Assembly: GCF_000425285.1 (NCBI RefSeq)
Contig: NZ_AUDD01000001.1
Span: 124,001 to 188,000, forward strand
DNA from: Acidipropionibacterium jensenii DSM 20535
GTDB taxonomy: Bacteria > Actinomycetota > Actinomycetes > Propionibacteriales > Propionibacteriaceae
Direction: 5' to 3'
DNA length: 64,000 nt
Below the pieces are notes generated by a model, which saw only the letters and a program-made list of their open reading frames with translations, had not been told where the DNA came from and did not search any database. The position numbers and the translations under genes were made by a program. Positions 35,327-41,288 of the stretch are shown one piece after another (the stretch's first letter is position 1; each line of letters opens with the position of its first letter).

Positions 35327-38179
35327 TCAGTCGGTGGCCCTCCAGGCGGCTCGGATGTCGGGCACTCCCTCCACTGGTTCGGCCGGTCCCCAGGCCTCGT
35401 GGAAGGAGCCGTTGGCGTCGGGCTCCAGGCCGAGCAGCACTCGGTCCTCCGCGCCCACCAGCCCCTCGACCGCGAGCACCCGACGGGCCCAGGCCCACAG
35501 TTGCGGATAGTCGACCAGAGATGCGGATCCCCACCCCAGGTGCCCCCGGTAGCACAGGTCCCACCCGACGAGCGTCCCGAAAAGGGCCAGATCGGCTGTG
35601 CTGAGCTCGTTGCCGAGCAGGAACCGCTGCCCTCTCCCGGCCGCCGGGTGAAGTGCCAGGTCCAGCATCCCGAGACGCGCGAAGAGCAGCCGTTCGACCG
35701 CATCGCGGACCGGCTGGTCGGTGGAGAAGATGGCCTGCTCCAGGCCGCCGATCACCTCCTCATCGATGAGCCGTTCGAGCCGGTCGATCTCGTCCCGGCG
35801 GGCGGCCGGGTAGAGCGGGCTATCTGCCGCGGCGGCCAGGCTGCGGGAGATCCACGCCCAGTCATCGCTGACCAGATTCCCTGAGGCATCCACCAGCTGG
35901 GGCGAGCTCGCGCTCCCGGGCCCGGTGAGCTCGACGCTCACCCAGTCCGGCGCGGCGAACCGAGCCCCCAGCACCGCGCCCCAGCTGCGCGGGGAATCGG
36001 TGGGTGCCATCAGGCGCAGCGGGGTATCGGGCAGCTCGGCCGGTCCGGGCAGTGAGGGCTCCTCGGCGATGAAGCGGCCGGCGTCGTCCACCTCTCCGGC
36101 CGGGCGGTGCGAGGCGAGGTCGGCGGTGGCGGTGTGCGCCGACCCGGCGTGTGCAGTCTCAGTACTCACAGACCCTCCCGAGGTCTCGAGGCGGTATTCA
36201 GAAGCGGCGCTACTCTGCGCGGGATCGGTGATGCGGTATGAGAAGCTGCGCAGCCGCTGGTGTCCATCGACCACCGCGGTCTCCCAGTCGATGCGCCGCA
36301 CGAACCCGTAATCCAGGTACATTCTGTGCGCCCAGGTCATCTGGGGCCCGGAATGGATGTCGACCCGGCGCAGCCCCAGCGCCCGAGCCACCGCAACGGC
36401 ATGGTCGGTGAGCACCCGGCCCAGTCCGAGCCCCCGTGCTCGTGGCCCGACACCGAGAATGTTGAAGGTGAAGGTGTCGGAGTCGAGGAATCGTGGCATC
36501 GGGGTGAGCACCGCGGCCAGAACTCCTCGGTCATCGGTGATCACCCAGACATTCGAGGTCCGCGCCCGCTCCGTGATGGCGTGCAGGGAGGCCACATACT
36601 CGGGGGTCGAGGTGCAGCCGGTGGTGAAGGCCGTCTCCAGGACGTCGCCCACCTCGGGGTACTCCTCAGGCAGCGCATGGCGCAGCGCCAACTCCCGCCC
36701 GTGCACCTGGAGCTCGCGGAACCAGAGAGTCGAGGGAATCGGCGACAGCGAGGCGATCACCTCGGGGGGCAGGTCGTGCGCGTCGAGGGGTCGCCGGACG
36801 TCGGGTGCATCCCTGGGGTCGGTCGTGTAGCGGGGGTCGAAGGAGCCGAGCGGGTCCTGGGAGATGAACTGCACCTGACGGCGCAGCGCGGGGCTCAGCG
36901 AGCGTGCGGAGCGGTGCCTTGCCCACGGGGTGGGTGGTCGTGAGTCCTGTCCGGATGGACCGCTGATCTGCACTCCGCCGATCTCGATCGAACCTTCGTC
37001 GGGGTGGGTGAGGTCCAGCAGAAGCCTGGCCAGGGTGCTCTTCCCCGATCCCGATTCGCCGACGATGCCGAGCTTCTGGCCGGCTTTCAGGGTCAGGCTG
37101 ACATGATCGACGGCGGTGCGGGTGCCGCCGTCCGGCAGCGGGAAGGACTTCGAGAGGTTGTGGGCGGCAAGCACTGGAGTGCCGGTGTCGACCTGACCCT
37201 CGGTCTCCTGGCGGAGGCGTAGAGGGGCCTCAGCCCGGGCACGCAGCCGGATTCCGGGGGACGCCGACAGTCGGGTTCCGCGGGTGGAGGCCGACGGGAC
37301 CGCCGCCAGCAGAGCCTTTGTGTACTCGTGCTCCGGGGCGGTGAGAACCTTCTCGGTGGGGCCCTGCTCGACGACCACTCCGTCATGCATCACCAGCACT
37401 CGGTCGGCGACCCGGGAAACCACTGCCAGGTCATGGGAGACCAGAAGCAGGGCGGTTCCCTCGGCTCGCCGGGACTCCAGCAGGTCGAGGATCTGGGCCT
37501 GCACGGTGACATCCAGGGCAGTGGTGGGCTCGTCGGCGATCAACAGGTCGGGGGCGCCGGCCAGTGCCGAGGCGATCAGGGCTCTCTGCCGCAGCCCGCC
37601 GGACAGTTGGTGAGGATACTGCCGGGAGCGGACCTGAGGATCGGGGATACCAACCTCGCGAAGCAGCTCGTCGACCCGTTCGCCGTACTGTCGGCGAGGC
37701 ACGATGCGGTGGGCGCGCAGGGTCTCGGTGATCTCGCGGCCAATGGTGCGCAGTGGGTCGAGTGAGGTCAGGGCATCCTGCAGGACGAAGCCGATCCGGC
37801 GGCCCCGGATGGCTCGCCACTGGCCCTCGCGCAGTCTCAGTCCGTCCTGGCCGATCACCGAGAACTGGTCGGCTGTCAGTTCGGCGTTGTCGCCGGCAAG
37901 TCCCACGATGCTGCGCGAGGTGACCGATTTTCCGGATCCGGACTCCCCGACGATGGCCAGCGCCTCGCCAGGGTTGATGGTGAACGAGACTCCGCGCACG
38001 GCATGCACCCGACGGGCGCCGGTGAACCGGACATCCAGGTTGCGGACCTCCACCAGTGGGGTTGGGGAACCGGTTGTCCGGGGGCCGGATGCGGAGGATC
38101 CGGAAGGCACGGGTTCAGGCTTCGATGTCACTGCGACTCCCCGGTGGGTTGCGGTGTGTGAAGTGGTAGCGAGGCTCAT
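35327..38179 (-). CDS. fusion: ABC ATPase, truncated second ABC ATPase, GNAT acetyltransferase, GST-like domain
   Basis: One uninterrupted 950-residue frame. Residues 42-290 are a complete oligopeptide-type ABC ATPase: Walker A GESGSGKSV (about 79), LSGGLRQR (about 191), Walker B LLIADEPTTALD (about 211). A second ATPase begins near 330 with Walker A GESGSGKST (about 372) and a Q-loop FISQDPLGSFDPRYT (about 437-450), but then stops: it has no signature, Walker B or switch. Residues 500-660 form a GNAT domain (acetyl-CoA loop VGPRARGLGLGR near 574). Residues 700-950 resemble a xi-class glutathione transferase (YPAARRDEIDRLERLIDEEV, FLLGNELSTADLALFGTLV), with Ser at the expected catalytic Cys (about 728). 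It overlaps the permease by four bases. Whether this is a working polyprotein or a deletion product is open. Confidence 0.82.
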   Translation of the reverse strand: MSLATTSHTATHRGVAVTSKPEPVPSGSSASGPRTTGSPTPLVEVRNLDVRFTGARRVHAVRGVSFTINPGEALAIVGESGSGKSVTSRSIVGLAGDNAELTADQFSVIGQDGLRLREGQWRAIRGRRIGFVLQDALTSLDPLRTIGREITETLRAHRIVPRRQYGERVDELLREVGIPDPQVRSRQYPHQLSGGLRQRALIASALAGAPDLLIADEPTTALDVTVQAQILDLLESRRAEGTALLLVSHDLAVVSRVADRVLVMHDGVVVEQGPTEKVLTAPEHEYTKALLAAVPSASTRGTRLSASPGIRLRARAEAPLRLRQETEGQVDTGTPVLAAHNLSKSFPLPDGGTRTAVDHVSLTLKAGQKLGIVGESGSGKSTLARLLLDLTHPDEGSIEIGGVQISGPSGQDSRPPTPWARHRSARSLSPALRRQVQFISQDPLGSFDPRYTTDPRDAPDVRRPLDAHDLPPEVIASLSPIPSTLWFRELQVHGRELALRHALPEEYPEVGDVLETAFTTGCTSTPEYVASLHAITERARTSNVWVITDDRGVLAAVLTPMPRFLDSDTFTFNILGVGPRARGLGLGRVLTDHAVAVARALGLRRVDIHSGPQMTWAHRMYLDYGFVRRIDWETAVVDGHQRLRSFSYRITDPAQSSAASEYRLETSGGSVSTETAHAGSAHTATADLASHRPAGEVDDAGRFIAEEPSLPGPAELPDTPLRLMAPTDSPRSWGAVLGARFAAPDWVSVELTGPGSASSPQLVDASGNLVSDDWAWISRSLAAAADSPLYPAARRDEIDRLERLIDEEVIGGLEQAIFSTDQPVRDAVERLLFARLGMLDLALHPAAGRGQRFLLGNELSTADLALFGTLVGWDLCYRGHLGWGSASLVDYPQLWAWARRVLAVEGLVGAEDRVLLGLEPDANGSFHEAWGPAEPVEGVPDIRAAWRATD

Positions 38180-39036
38180 GCCGACCTTCTCTCGTAGCGG
38201 GCCTGCAGGGTGCGGCCCAGTGCGGTCGCGGCGATCACGACAGTGGTGACCGCAGCACCCGGGAAGACGCCGAGCCACCAGGCATGGCGCAGGTAGTCGC
38301 GCGACTCGGAGATCATCAGGCCCCATTCGGGGGCCGGCGGCTGGGGACCGAGCCCCAGGAAGCTCAGGCCTGCGGAGCTGACGATCGCCTCGCCCAGAGC
38401 GATGGTGGCGATGATGGGCAGCGATCCCAGGGCGTTGGGCAGGATGTGGCGCAGCAGCGACCGGACACCGGTGACCCCGAAGGTGCGGGCCTGTTCGACG
38501 TACCCGGACTGGCGTGTCTGCAGTACCTGGGTGCGCACCAGGCGGGCGTACTTGGGGATCCCGGCGATCCCGATCGCGACGATCAGGTTGGGGACGCCGG
38601 GGCCGGTCAGAGCGATGAACAGCAGGGCCAGCAGAACCTCGGGAAATGCTGCCAGGATGTCGATCGCCCGGCCGACGGTGTAGTCCAGCCAGCGCGGCCC
38701 GGTGGATGCCAGGATCCCGAGGACCAGGCCGGCGAACAGGCCCAGCATGGTGGCTCCCAACCCGATCGACAGGGAGTAGCGGGCGCCGTGAATGATCCGT
38801 GAGTAGACGTCTCGACCCTGCAGATCTGTTCCGGCCCAGTGAGCGGTGCTGGGAGCGTGCAGGGACACGGCCGGGTCGGCGTAGAGCGGATCGACGTGGC
38901 TGAGCAACCGGGGGAACAGTGCCGCGATGACGGCCAGTGCAAGGACCGTGCCACTGGCGGTGATCGCAAGACTGGATCGCAGTCTGCCGGGGTGGCGGAC
39001 GACTGCTGGTGCGGTGGACAGTGAGATGACGGCCAT
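38176..39036 (-). CDS. Dpp/Opp-type ABC permease, DppC-like
   Basis: A 286-residue inner-membrane permease with six helices and an N-terminal cytoplasmic arm. The start of the outer loop HWAGTDLQGRDVYSRIIHGARYSL and the ATPase-contact loop EQARTFGVTGVRSLLRHILPNALGSL are hallmarks of DppC/GsiD permeases. It starts 2 bases after the DppB-like gene and overlaps the fusion gene by four bases, so all three form one transporter operon. The family imports peptides, nickel chelates, glutathione or related sulfur compounds. Confidence 0.9.
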   Translation of the reverse strand: MAVISLSTAPAVVRHPGRLRSSLAITASGTVLALAVIAALFPRLLSHVDPLYADPAVSLHAPSTAHWAGTDLQGRDVYSRIIHGARYSLSIGLGATMLGLFAGLVLGILASTGPRWLDYTVGRAIDILAAFPEVLLALLFIALTGPGVPNLIVAIGIAGIPKYARLVRTQVLQTRQSGYVEQARTFGVTGVRSLLRHILPNALGSLPIIATIALGEAIVSSAGLSFLGLGPQPPAPEWGLMISESRDYLRHAWWLGVFPGAAVTTVVIAATALGRTLQARYERRSA

Positions 39037-39038
39037 GA

Positions 39039-40046
39039 TCAGCTCCTGGAGGCTCGTGCGGTGCGAAGCCGTGGATCGATCGCCAGGGCGATGATGTCGA
39101 CGGCGGTGGAGGCCGCTACAAAGGCGGCCGTGGCGACCAGAGTGATGCCCAGGATCAGTGGGATGTCCTTGACAGTGACCGCTTGAACGGCAATCTGGCC
39201 CAGCCCGGATCGGCCGAAGACCTGTTCGACGACCACAGCCCCGCCTATAAGGCTGCCGATGACCAGACCCAGAACCGTGATCACCGGGACCGTTCCGTGC
39301 TTGAGGGCATGCCGGGTGTGGACCTGTGGTGCCGAGAGTCCGCGAGAGCGGGAGGTGAGTGAGAACGGCTGTTCCATCGCGCGGTCGGCGCCGTCGCGCA
39401 GGATCTGGGTGAGATAGCAGCCGATCGGGAGGGCCAGTGACAGTGCTGGCAGTACCAAGGCACTGGGTGAGTCGGGGTCGACGATGGAGAACCAACCGAG
39501 TTTGAAGGAGAAGACCAGCAGCAGCACGATCCCGAGCCAGAATGCCGGGGCCGAGAGCAGGATCAGCTCGACGACCTGGGAGATCGGCCGCAGTCTGCGG
39601 AACCGTGTCGAGGTGAGCGCGGTGAGCAGGTAGGCGATCAGGACGGCACCGATAGCCGCGGAGAAGGCCAGTTGGAGGGTCGGCCCGATGGACTCGGCGA
39701 GCAGCGAGGTGACTGGCCGGGAGAAGCTGTAACTGGTTCCGAGGTCACCGGTGGGGATGCGTGCTAGGTAGACCAGGTACTGGTACCACAGCGGGTGGTC
39801 CAACCCCCATCGCTCAATCGTGCGGGCACGCAGCACTGGATCATCGCGGTTCTCGCCGAGCAGCAGGGAGACGGTGTCGCCGGGGGTTGCGTGGACGGCC
39901 AGGAAAGTCAGTGTGGTGGCCGCCCACAGCACGAACAGGGCTCCCAGGATGCGGTAGAGCACCAACTTGGCGAGGTGCGCTCGGCGTGGGGCGGCAGCCG
40001 TCTCGGCGGCGACCTGCCGGGTGTTGTGGAGGACGAAGTGGTCCAT
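39039..40046 (-). CDS. Dpp/Opp-type ABC permease, DppB-like
   Basis: A 335-residue permease with six helices. The typical N-terminal segment FLAVHATPGDTVSLLLGE, the loop GLDHPLWYQYLVYL, GDLGTSYSFSRPV and the late GGAVVVEQVFGRSGLGQIAVQAV identify a DppB/GsiC-type subunit. ATG at 40046 was chosen; a frame opening 69 bases earlier is unconserved. It is the first large gene after a roughly 560-base leader region. No periplasmic binding-protein gene lies next to the permeases, which is unusual for this transporter class. Confidence 0.9.
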   Translation of the reverse strand: MDHFVLHNTRQVAAETAAAPRRAHLAKLVLYRILGALFVLWAATTLTFLAVHATPGDTVSLLLGENRDDPVLRARTIERWGLDHPLWYQYLVYLARIPTGDLGTSYSFSRPVTSLLAESIGPTLQLAFSAAIGAVLIAYLLTALTSTRFRRLRPISQVVELILLSAPAFWLGIVLLLVFSFKLGWFSIVDPDSPSALVLPALSLALPIGCYLTQILRDGADRAMEQPFSLTSRSRGLSAPQVHTRHALKHGTVPVITVLGLVIGSLIGGAVVVEQVFGRSGLGQIAVQAVTVKDIPLILGITLVATAAFVAASTAVDIIALAIDPRLRTARASRS

Positions 40047-40272
40047 CTCTGATACTTCCAAACTTTCAGCACAGGAACTGCGGAGGCCGGTCAGTTGAGT
40101 GGACCGGGCATGCATGGTGGGGCCCTGGCAGAGTGGTTCTGGGGAGCCGCAGGGCGCGAGAGGCCCACGGATCAGGCCCTCGGGGGCCGGAATCTGGGGT
40201 GGTGCTCAGCGCTAACGGATCTGGCAGCTGGGTGACAGAGGGGCGGTGCCCGAAGAGGTCACTGCTGCGAGG

Positions 40273-40297
40273 CTTCCGGGGACCGATGCCCCGGAAG
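40273..40297 (-). promoter_or_regulatory. hairpin just after the leader peptide frame
   Basis: CTTCCGGGG and CCCCGGAAG pair over a seven-base loop. In the operon's direction it begins 14 bases after the leader stop codon. A ribosome stalled on the Cys codons would not cover it directly, so it could act in attenuation or occlusion. No U-run follows, arguing against a simple intrinsic terminator. Confidence 0.45.
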
Positions 40298-40311
40298 GCC
40301 GAACAGCCGGA

Positions 40312-40365
40312 TCAGCGGCAACACATGGGGTCGAGGGCGCTGGGACACGGCATGCACATACACAT
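40312..40365 (-). CDS. Cys/Met-rich leader peptide (17 residues)
   Basis: The short frame encodes MCMCMPCPSALDPMCCR and stops at TGA: five cysteines (TGT or TGC) and four methionines in 17 codons. It lies 266 bases before the DppB-like start, on the operon strand, and a hairpin follows. Polycysteine short frames upstream of sulfur-metabolism operons are known as cysteine-responsive attenuators in mycobacteria; this has the same composition and context. No clear ribosome binding site precedes the first ATG, and no obvious -10 for a leaderless start is visible, so the translation start is uncertain. Confidence 0.5.
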   Translation of the reverse strand: MCMCMPCPSALDPMCCR

Positions 40366-40570
40366 CGGGCGGCGGGCTGAGATTGCCAGGCCTCCGACGG
40401 TGTGCACGATCGCGTTCACGCAAACTCCTCAACCGGGTTGCGTGAGTCGACAGTGTGACTCACAACAACCATGACGATCGGACGGTACTGCCGATCGGAT
40501 CCCGACCAACCGGGATTGCGAAGGACACTAGGGGCAGAGCCACCGTGGTTCCAACATTGTCTTGAAACGT

Positions 40571-40608
40571 GAGACCATATATCAATATCTGATATTCCTC
40601 AGGGTCTC
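40571..40608 (-). terminator. AT-rich hairpin after the HAD gene
   Basis: GAGACC (40571-40576) and GGTCTC (40603-40608) enclose a second short inverted repeat ATATCA/TGATAT in an unusually AT-rich stretch, three bases after the stop of the HAD hydrolase gene. It may end that transcript or be part of the following promoter. Confidence 0.4.
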
Positions 40609-40610
40609 AA

Positions 40611-41288
40611 TCACGCTTCTGAGCGCAGCTGGAAACCGGGTGCGGTGATGCTCACACCGTCCCGGCCCACCGTGAAGGAGACCTCGGACAGATCGGTGAC
40701 CACGGCCTCGGCGTCCAGATCGGCGCTGGGGGTGGAGGTGGTCAGCGCCAGGGCCGACATGCCGGCCCGGTGGGCCGCCTCGACCCCCGCCGGGGCGTCC
40801 TCGACGACCAGGCAGCGGGCCGGGTCGGCGTCCAGCCGCCGGGCGGCCAGCAGGAAGGCATCGGGCTCGGGCTTGCCGCGCTCGACGTCCTCACCGCTCA
40901 CCATGACCCGAGGCGGTTCGAGTCCGGCCGCGGCCAGCCTGGCCAGGGCCACCGGACGCCGCGAGGAGGTGGCCACCGCGGCGACCTCGTGCAGCGCGGA
41001 CAGTGCCTCGACGGCACCGGGGATCGCGGTGATGCCCTCGGTGGTGGTCAGCTCGAGCTCGTCGATCAGGGCCAGCGCCTCGGCGCGGCGGGGCTTCTCG
41101 ATGGCGGCGTCGACGATGTCGCGGGTTCGCCAGCCGGCCCTTCCGGTGAGCTGATCGGGTGAGATGCGGTACTCCCGGGCCCAGCTGCCGAATGCGGCGA
41201 CCAGGGCCTCCTGGGAGTCGACCAGGGTGTTGTCGAGGTCGAGGATCACGGCGTCGAACCGTTGGGTGGGAAGGGATCCGAGATTCAT
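40611..41288 (-). CDS. HAD hydrolase, beta-phosphoglucomutase-like
   Basis: A 225-residue HAD-superfamily phosphatase with a small helical cap. Motif I is LDLDNTLVDS, motif II is VATSSRRP, motif III GKPEPD and motif IV VVEDAPAGVEAA, all intact. The set matches the GPH/CbbY/beta-PGM subfamily that dephosphorylates small sugar phosphates such as sugar alcohol or 2-deoxyglucose phosphates. It stands alone between the ABC operon leader and the DCC-family gene. Substrate unknown. Confidence 0.88.
   Translation of the reverse strand: MNLGSLPTQRFDAVILDLDNTLVDSQEALVAAFGSWAREYRISPDQLTGRAGWRTRDIVDAAIEKPRRAEALALIDELELTTTEGITAIPGAVEALSALHEVAAVATSSRRPVALARLAAAGLEPPRVMVSGEDVERGKPEPDAFLLAARRLDADPARCLVVEDAPAGVEAAHRAGMSALALTTSTPSADLDAEAVVTDLSEVSFTVGRDGVSITAPGFQLRSEA

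Follow-up and report, generated by a model that had tools for sequence, protein, structure and literature searches.

Cysteine-rich leaders and related pathways

Canestrari et al. reportedly described polycysteine leaderless short ORFs of mycobacteria as attenuators in 2020. In the available excerpts of three papers on such mycobacterial sORFs, contiguous cysteine codons are placed upstream of operons, the speed of the ribosome is cysteine-dependent and the downstream genes are attenuated, with control at the level of translation reported for M. smegmatis (PMC9031893, PMC9094748, PMC13236596). Leaders with runs of cysteine codons have also been described for the cys operon of Propionibacterium acnes and for cbs of Bifidobacterium longum; the accessible part of that work notes no obvious terminator and suggests a role for Rho (Seliverstov et al. 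2005, PMC1262725). Two further systems are relevant to the genes discussed below. In the scm (yxe) pathway of B. subtilis for breakdown of S-(2-succino)cysteine, an acetyltransferase and a hydrolase help to recover cysteine from the thioether, according to the excerpt available (PMC12757645), and MstX of C. glutamicum is presented in the available text as a Xi-class mycothiol S-transferase (PMC6815410).

The window analysed here (the whole stretch of 64,000 nt from Acidipropionibacterium jensenii DSM 20535, to which all coordinates refer) contains a short Met- and Cys-rich frame ahead of an ABC/GNAT/GST operon. Sequence comparison makes it probable that a cysteine-responsive leader with its own Shine-Dalgarno (SD) sequence attenuates this probably sulfur-related uptake operon, as one member of a set of such leaders in the genus. 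We infer from sequence that the frame is translated and that it responds to cysteine, as well as the direction of this response. The original prediction saw here a possible new instance outside mycobacteria, a claim that is superseded by the leaders published in 2005 for P. acnes and B. longum, as given in the accessible part of PMC1262725.

The leader frame

The frame of 17 codons originally reported, MCMCMPCPSALDPMCCR, is translated exactly as stated at 40312-40365 on the minus strand. It forms the 3' part of a longer frame that is open upstream to a GTG at 40419 and encodes the full peptide VNAIVHTVGGLAISARRPMCMCMPCPSALDPMCCR, followed by TGA. The elements of the leader are:

40312-40419, minus strand: leader peptide frame, GTG start, 35 codons plus stop, kept in both operon-bearing congeners
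40425-40430, minus strand: SD sequence GAGGAG of the leader, read in the sequence, identical in both congeners (G027 and G003)
40351-40365, minus strand: MCMCM block ATGTGTATGTGCATG, 15/15 bases identical in the window and the two congeners
40318-40323, minus strand: terminal Cys-Cys codons TGT TGC; TGTTGC is terminal in all three aligned leaders

The distance from GAGGAG to the GTG is 5 nt, and the peptide contains five cysteines and four internal methionines, with CC directly preceding the last codon. Five cysteines in 34 leader residues compare with 1.33% Cys in 25 window ORFs (p ~8e-5 for a single frame, uncorrected for how many frames there are); the corresponding value for the four methionines is p ~0.007. 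Since the GTG start and the SD sequence are kept in two congeners, the methionines of the MCMCM block are probably not the start of the leader. The block itself is a 15-base alternating purine-pyrimidine run. The leader stop lies 265 nt before the ATG of the first permease gene at 40046, in agreement with the distance of about 266 bases given originally.

One promoter-like site was found in a scan in which 0.1 would be expected:

40556-40585, minus strand: promoter-like site TTGATA-18-GACAAT, a consensus match only

It would place the transcript start about 130 nt before the GTG. Both this predicted site and the GAGGAG kept in three species point away from a leaderless start of the mycobacterial type. 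Several palindromic elements were observed in the same region. An imperfect palindrome, GGTTGTTGTGAGTC-N8-GACTCACGCAACC, lies directly upstream of the leader SD at 40436-40470; no such element was seen where both congeners align here. Another palindrome, ATATCAGATATTGATAT, covers the -35 region (40579-40595), together with a GGTCTCAC element (40569-40576), and GTGAGACC or GAGA-N5-TCTC-like elements are also found upstream of several cysK leaders. The palindrome over the -35 and these elements are a possible operator. For the GGTCTCAC-like motif, about 0.6 matches per region are expected when one mismatch is allowed, and hence no claim is made for it as a shared signal.

Conservation ahead of the ABC operon

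Of 147 family genomes searched for the permease, 12 gave a match at E 1e-60 or better; three of these belong to the genus, including the window's own. Both congeners with the operon keep the SD sequence, the GTG, the frame and the MCMCM block, with a variable N-terminal part, and their peptides end in SCCC (G027) and SSCC (G003). The pattern ATGTGYATGTGYATG occurs once per genome in the window's genome and in these two congeners, and is absent from congeners G047 and G063, neither of which has a permease match. Apart from the Cys block, the peptide sequence shows free variation.

The identity of the MCMCM block in three species could alternatively mean that an RNA hairpin or a DNA operator is what is conserved, the Cys and Met codons being a by-product of the ATGTGTATGTGCATG sequence. 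The block can pair with an upstream TGCACAC, and RNAalifold pairs it with the leader's own upstream part, as a weakly predicted 3' arm; the covariation term, however, is +1.45, and none of the pairs changed on both sides (3 of 38) falls in this hairpin, while the z-scores of the three leaders are -2.0, -1.0 and -0.2. Moreover, Cys runs persist in leaders from other genera that lack the block, and the cysK and cysH leaders described below keep such runs in other nucleotide contexts, which makes this explanation very unlikely.

For the wider comparison a fixed rule was used, which was set after sight of these leaders: rule A comprises 10–60 codons, an SD sequence, at least three Cys and a CC in the last 10 residues, and rule B is rule A without the SD sequence. 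By these rules, a leader precedes seven (A) or nine (B) of 12 family operons, located in 11 genomes; G016 (37% identity, L014), one of 13 permease places, is outside the 12 operons counted. Neither rule finds a leader in G114 and G023, and G061 has only a frame with two Cys; the first-gene positions are approximate for G061, G023, L020 and L021. In other genera the order of the operon differs, and the leader precedes whichever gene stands first. It is found ahead of a GST-like gene in G033 (P. cyclohexanicum; MNISREAVSVMPAVRSTRCQLDCCSPSTAR), of an amidohydrolase-like gene in G094 (MNESMHGRSAAASFVMRMSPCRCCCRFC; so labelled from its resemblance to the G033 protein that was tested) and of permeases in G098 (MNLIALPLSSCGFASLCCRR) and G140 (MGNLMAIRSCCCLCC). 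The Cys codons, whose conservation in relatives had been put forward as a check of the original prediction, are therefore kept in the congeners and in seven or nine of the 12 family operons.

None of four operons outside the family was positive by the fixed rule. L020 (B. psychraerophilum) was not counted, its frame having one CC but no third Cys. Likewise, no leader was detected at 21 more distant permease loci from 20 genomes of other families, in about 630 nt upstream of the permease, a test that would miss any leader placed before an earlier gene. In the set of 61 loci, the rule was applied to L016, L017, L020 and L021; L018, L019 and L022 were taken as the same loci as G114, G033 and G107 and counted once, and L023, L024, L027 and the other 51 were outside the rule.

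As a control, rule A was applied to 1248 window tiles (600 nt, both strands, excluding tiles over 40200-40700) and to 41 upstream regions of window ORFs, without a single positive in either set; without the SD rule, 21 tiles and one ORF upstream region are positive. Random locus tiles (18/1596 positive) include real leaders, and the window tiles were hence used as the cleaner control.

Related leaders on cysK and cysH-cysD-type genes

Similar frames are present ahead of other genes in the genus:

L096:1033-1143: Met/Cys-rich, SD-led leader of the own-genome cysK, ending in MMSMPACRMPSCPVTSSCCR, 330-odd nt before the gene
L149:7165-7254, L148 (reverse strand) and L150: leaders of paired PAPS_reduct genes in three congeners

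L096 is the best cysK match of the window's own genome, and frames of the same kind precede cysK in G063, G027 and G003, with peptides ending in MMSMSTCRSMVPGQCCCR, MSMSMCSFRCCRS or MSMSMCSRPCCRS. By rule A, 4 of 23 cysK loci are positive (one being unreadable), all four in the genus, and three more are positive without the SD rule; the unreadable upstream region belongs to L138 (G047), a short locus that is seemingly cut at a contig end.

Paired PAPS_reduct genes, which we take from their type to be cysH-cysD, were found in six of 12 genomes searched. PAPS_reduct (PF01507) has no match in the window's own genome, and the pair occurs in three of four congeners; judging by sequence, sulfate assimilation may have been lost in the window's strain. 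The leaders before the pair in the three congeners end in TTCMCRMCC, NTCMCRMCC and SSCMCRMC, 110–117 nt before the gene. CMCRMCC is found in G003 and G027, and CMCRMC in G063, where the frame has no SD by the pattern used. Upstream of the pairs of G033, G061 and G094 nothing equally clear was seen.

Met/Cys-rich leaders thus occur on three operon types in one genus: the ABC operon, cysK and the PAPS_reduct pair. Within the genus, the seven ABC and cysK leaders contain 28 methionines in 218 residues; nine leaders from elsewhere contain 10 in 196, and the methionine share in window ORFs is 2.3%. These leaders are related to each other, and the figures are not an independent test. With respect to the genes downstream, the leader style is common to cysK and cysH-cysD-type genes, and the gene types of the ABC/GNAT/GST operon suggest a sulfur role for it as well.

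The frame being a chance short ORF without function is very unlikely: Cys-bearing short frames are not rare without the SD rule (21/1248 tiles, 1/41 ORF upstream regions), but conservation in the congeners, recurrence on three operon types and 0/1248 positives under the stricter criterion all speak against it. The reading of the frame as a cysteine attenuator is well supported because the leader is conserved, the controls are empty (0/1248 and 0/41) and the leader recurs on cysK and the PAPS_reduct operon. The originally proposed control through Cys codons is supported in part, by the conserved codons and by the same leader on cysK and a cysH-cysD-type operon.

Possible mode of action

If the frame acts as a cysteine attenuator, ribosomes would complete the leader and leave when cysteine is plentiful, and expression of the operon would stay low. 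When charged Cys-tRNA, and perhaps also Met-tRNA, is short, ribosomes would be held up within the final third of the frame, and expression would rise. The step after stalling could take one of three forms, in our order of preference: relief of Rho-dependent termination in the C-rich spacer, with not quite an even chance of being right; control of permease translation, also a serious candidate; and an intrinsic hairpin, which seems improbable.

The last of these concerns a hairpin behind the leader:

40274-40296, minus strand: hairpin TTCCGGGG/CCCCGGAA, 15 nt past the leader stop, no T-run

The presence of a strong hairpin after the frame agrees with the original observation; it begins 15 nt past the stop. 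For this hairpin to be the terminator of an intrinsic-termination attenuator, stalling would have to prevent its formation. Similarly placed hairpins that follow the cysH leaders in three congeners, with base changes in both arms, are in line with such a function, but a scan of 39900-40700 gave no T-run terminator-like site, and the two congeners do not conserve the hairpin behind their ABC leaders (z -2.68 in the window, 0.37 in G027, -1.27 in G003). In addition, folding predicts it to be formed at 0.82 or more with a ribosome modelled at each Cys codon or at the stop, which leaves no antiterminator. The cysH hairpins are predicted at 0.65 or more in RNA ending just behind them and at 0.31 or less once the RNA extends 100 nt past the stop. 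The role of attenuator that the original prediction gave to this 9-bp hairpin is therefore not borne out, and termination by this route is improbable. The cysH-leader hairpins are of the TTCCGGGC/GCCCGGAA type, and in folds for G027 and G003 an upstream CGCGTCCGA competes for the left arm.

A classical intrinsic-terminator attenuator was rejected for the window's operon for lack of a T-run terminator and of a competing antiterminator in the modelled states. SAM, cobalamin and other Rfam riboswitches were rejected as well, as there was no match at gathering score in the window or in L077, L078 and L096. Eight leaders compared with the curated leader peptides of NCBIfam matched no family at E up to 10, a search in which filters may lose short peptides.

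The two preferred forms of the stalling model both involve the region between leader and permease:

40047-40311, minus strand: C-rich, G-poor untranslated spacer from leader to first permease (C 0.40, G 0.27)

Ranked by C-G excess among 220-nt window tiles, the spacer is in the top 2.6%, and those of G027, G003 and the own cysK rank at 0%, 0% and 3.0%; C also exceeds G in three cysH-leader spacers, and the permease gene is likewise C-rich over its first 200 nt. The C-rich spacer fits the Rho proposal of Seliverstov et al., short of proving it, and control at the level of translation is nearly as likely. What counts against the Rho model is that a stalled ribosome would not obviously cover the spacer of 265 nt. 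With regard to translation, the predicted accessibility of the permease SD is alike for stalling and for termination at the stop codon (0.40–0.50 in the window, 0.55–0.59 in G027 and 0.60–0.66 in G003). A ribosome anywhere on the leader brings it from 0.38–0.39 up to about 0.6 in the two congeners. Only for the own cysK is there a clear excess on stalling, with 0.60 and 0.58 at two of the five Cys codons versus 0.37 at the stop. SD sequestration switched by stalling was rejected as a general scheme, since stalling and stop did not differ consistently either for the permease (three species) or for cysH (three). Translational control remains a candidate.

The operon and its deletion

Three genes on the same strand follow the spacer:

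39039-40046, minus strand: first permease, Opp/Dpp/Nik/Gsi type (BPD_transp_1)
38176-39051, minus strand: second permease, Opp/Dpp/Nik/Gsi type
35327-38179, minus strand: in-frame fusion of an ABC ATPase with a GNAT-GST_C protein, deletion junction near 36824

The start of the fusion at 38179 was assigned by comparison, the frame as read having 999 codons. Its ATPase part is cut in the second nucleotide-binding domain and joined in frame to the GNAT-GST_C protein: residues 1-501 match a longer ATPase in G003 and G027, and the part from residue 501 (G003) or 510 (G027) to the end corresponds to a GNAT-GST gene of its own. In G003, 4.4 kb separate the two matches, an interval that holds the ATPase remainder, a binding protein of family 5, a Xi/glutathionyl-hydroquinone-reductase (GHR)-type GST and a second GST-like protein. 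The binding protein of G027, the genome in which the GST types were tested, matches TIGR04028 below the cut-off, and GHR/Xi structures match almost the full length of the first GST-like gene in the relatives' operons. Since the congeners keep separate genes, the fusion appears to be a deletion derivative, or else an assembly error. The "odd transporter fusion" of the original prediction would accordingly be the product of a 4.4-kb deletion, through which the locus lost the binding protein and two GST-like genes. A search of the own genome with the first GST returns only the GNAT-GST of the window and no other copy, and with the binding protein only a 27% relative.

This deletion raises the question of whether the leader is a relic, ancestral and without useful regulation now that the operon is broken. 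The absence of another first GST-like gene and of a close binding protein from the genome would be consistent with such decay, but the SD sequence, the frame and all five Cys codons are intact, and the fusion continues in frame through GNAT-GST without a stop; we consider a relic unlikely.

In the relatives, the operon would serve to import and break down organosulfur S-conjugates. This suggestion is based on the gene types and on analogy with the S-(2-succino)cysteine route of B. subtilis and the Xi-class enzyme of C. glutamicum. Going further, the interleaved Met/Cys leader might be a joint gauge of sulfur amino acids over cysK, cysH-cysD and the uptake operon, and the latter an oxygen-independent S-conjugate salvage route in which acetylation by GNAT, reductive cleavage of the thioether by a Xi/GHR-type enzyme and an amidohydrolase together recover cysteine, without the monooxygenase of B. 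subtilis; we put this forward as a speculative proposal that is unlikely to be right.

Comparison with known systems

The leader would link the ABC/GNAT/GST operon to cysteine supply and thereby give an initial clue to its substrate. Control by Cys leaders in Propionibacteriaceae may further extend past the cys genes, to a regulon with a recognisable Met/Cys signature, and such leaders could serve to find other unrecognised sulfur genes. Several natural leader variants are now available for comparing the Rho and translation routes.

Among the literature matches listed (titles and abstract openings, with few subscription journals covered), there was no report of such a leader in front of an ABC/GNAT/GST operon. 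What looks new is the target operon, together with the interleaving of Met and Cys codons common to three operon types, the kind of switch being already known. With respect to the scm (yxe) system, as far as the available excerpt describes it (PMC12757645), the likeness is a functional analogy only; in the operons inspected no monooxygenase gene was noticed, and the relatives of the window have a Xi/GHR-like GST. A gene matching Xi/GHR structures, the types to which MstX and the glutathionyl-hydroquinone reductases belong, is present in the operons of relatives and deleted in the window, where only the GST C-terminal domain on the GNAT protein is left. Like the mycobacterial sORFs of the excerpts cited above, the frame has Cys codons upstream of an operon, but it starts behind a conserved SD sequence, whereas theirs are leaderless. 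Compared with the leaders in the accessible part of Seliverstov et al. (PMC1262725), it differs in its target, an ABC uptake/GNAT/GST operon, and in the Met codons that are interleaved with those for cysteine.
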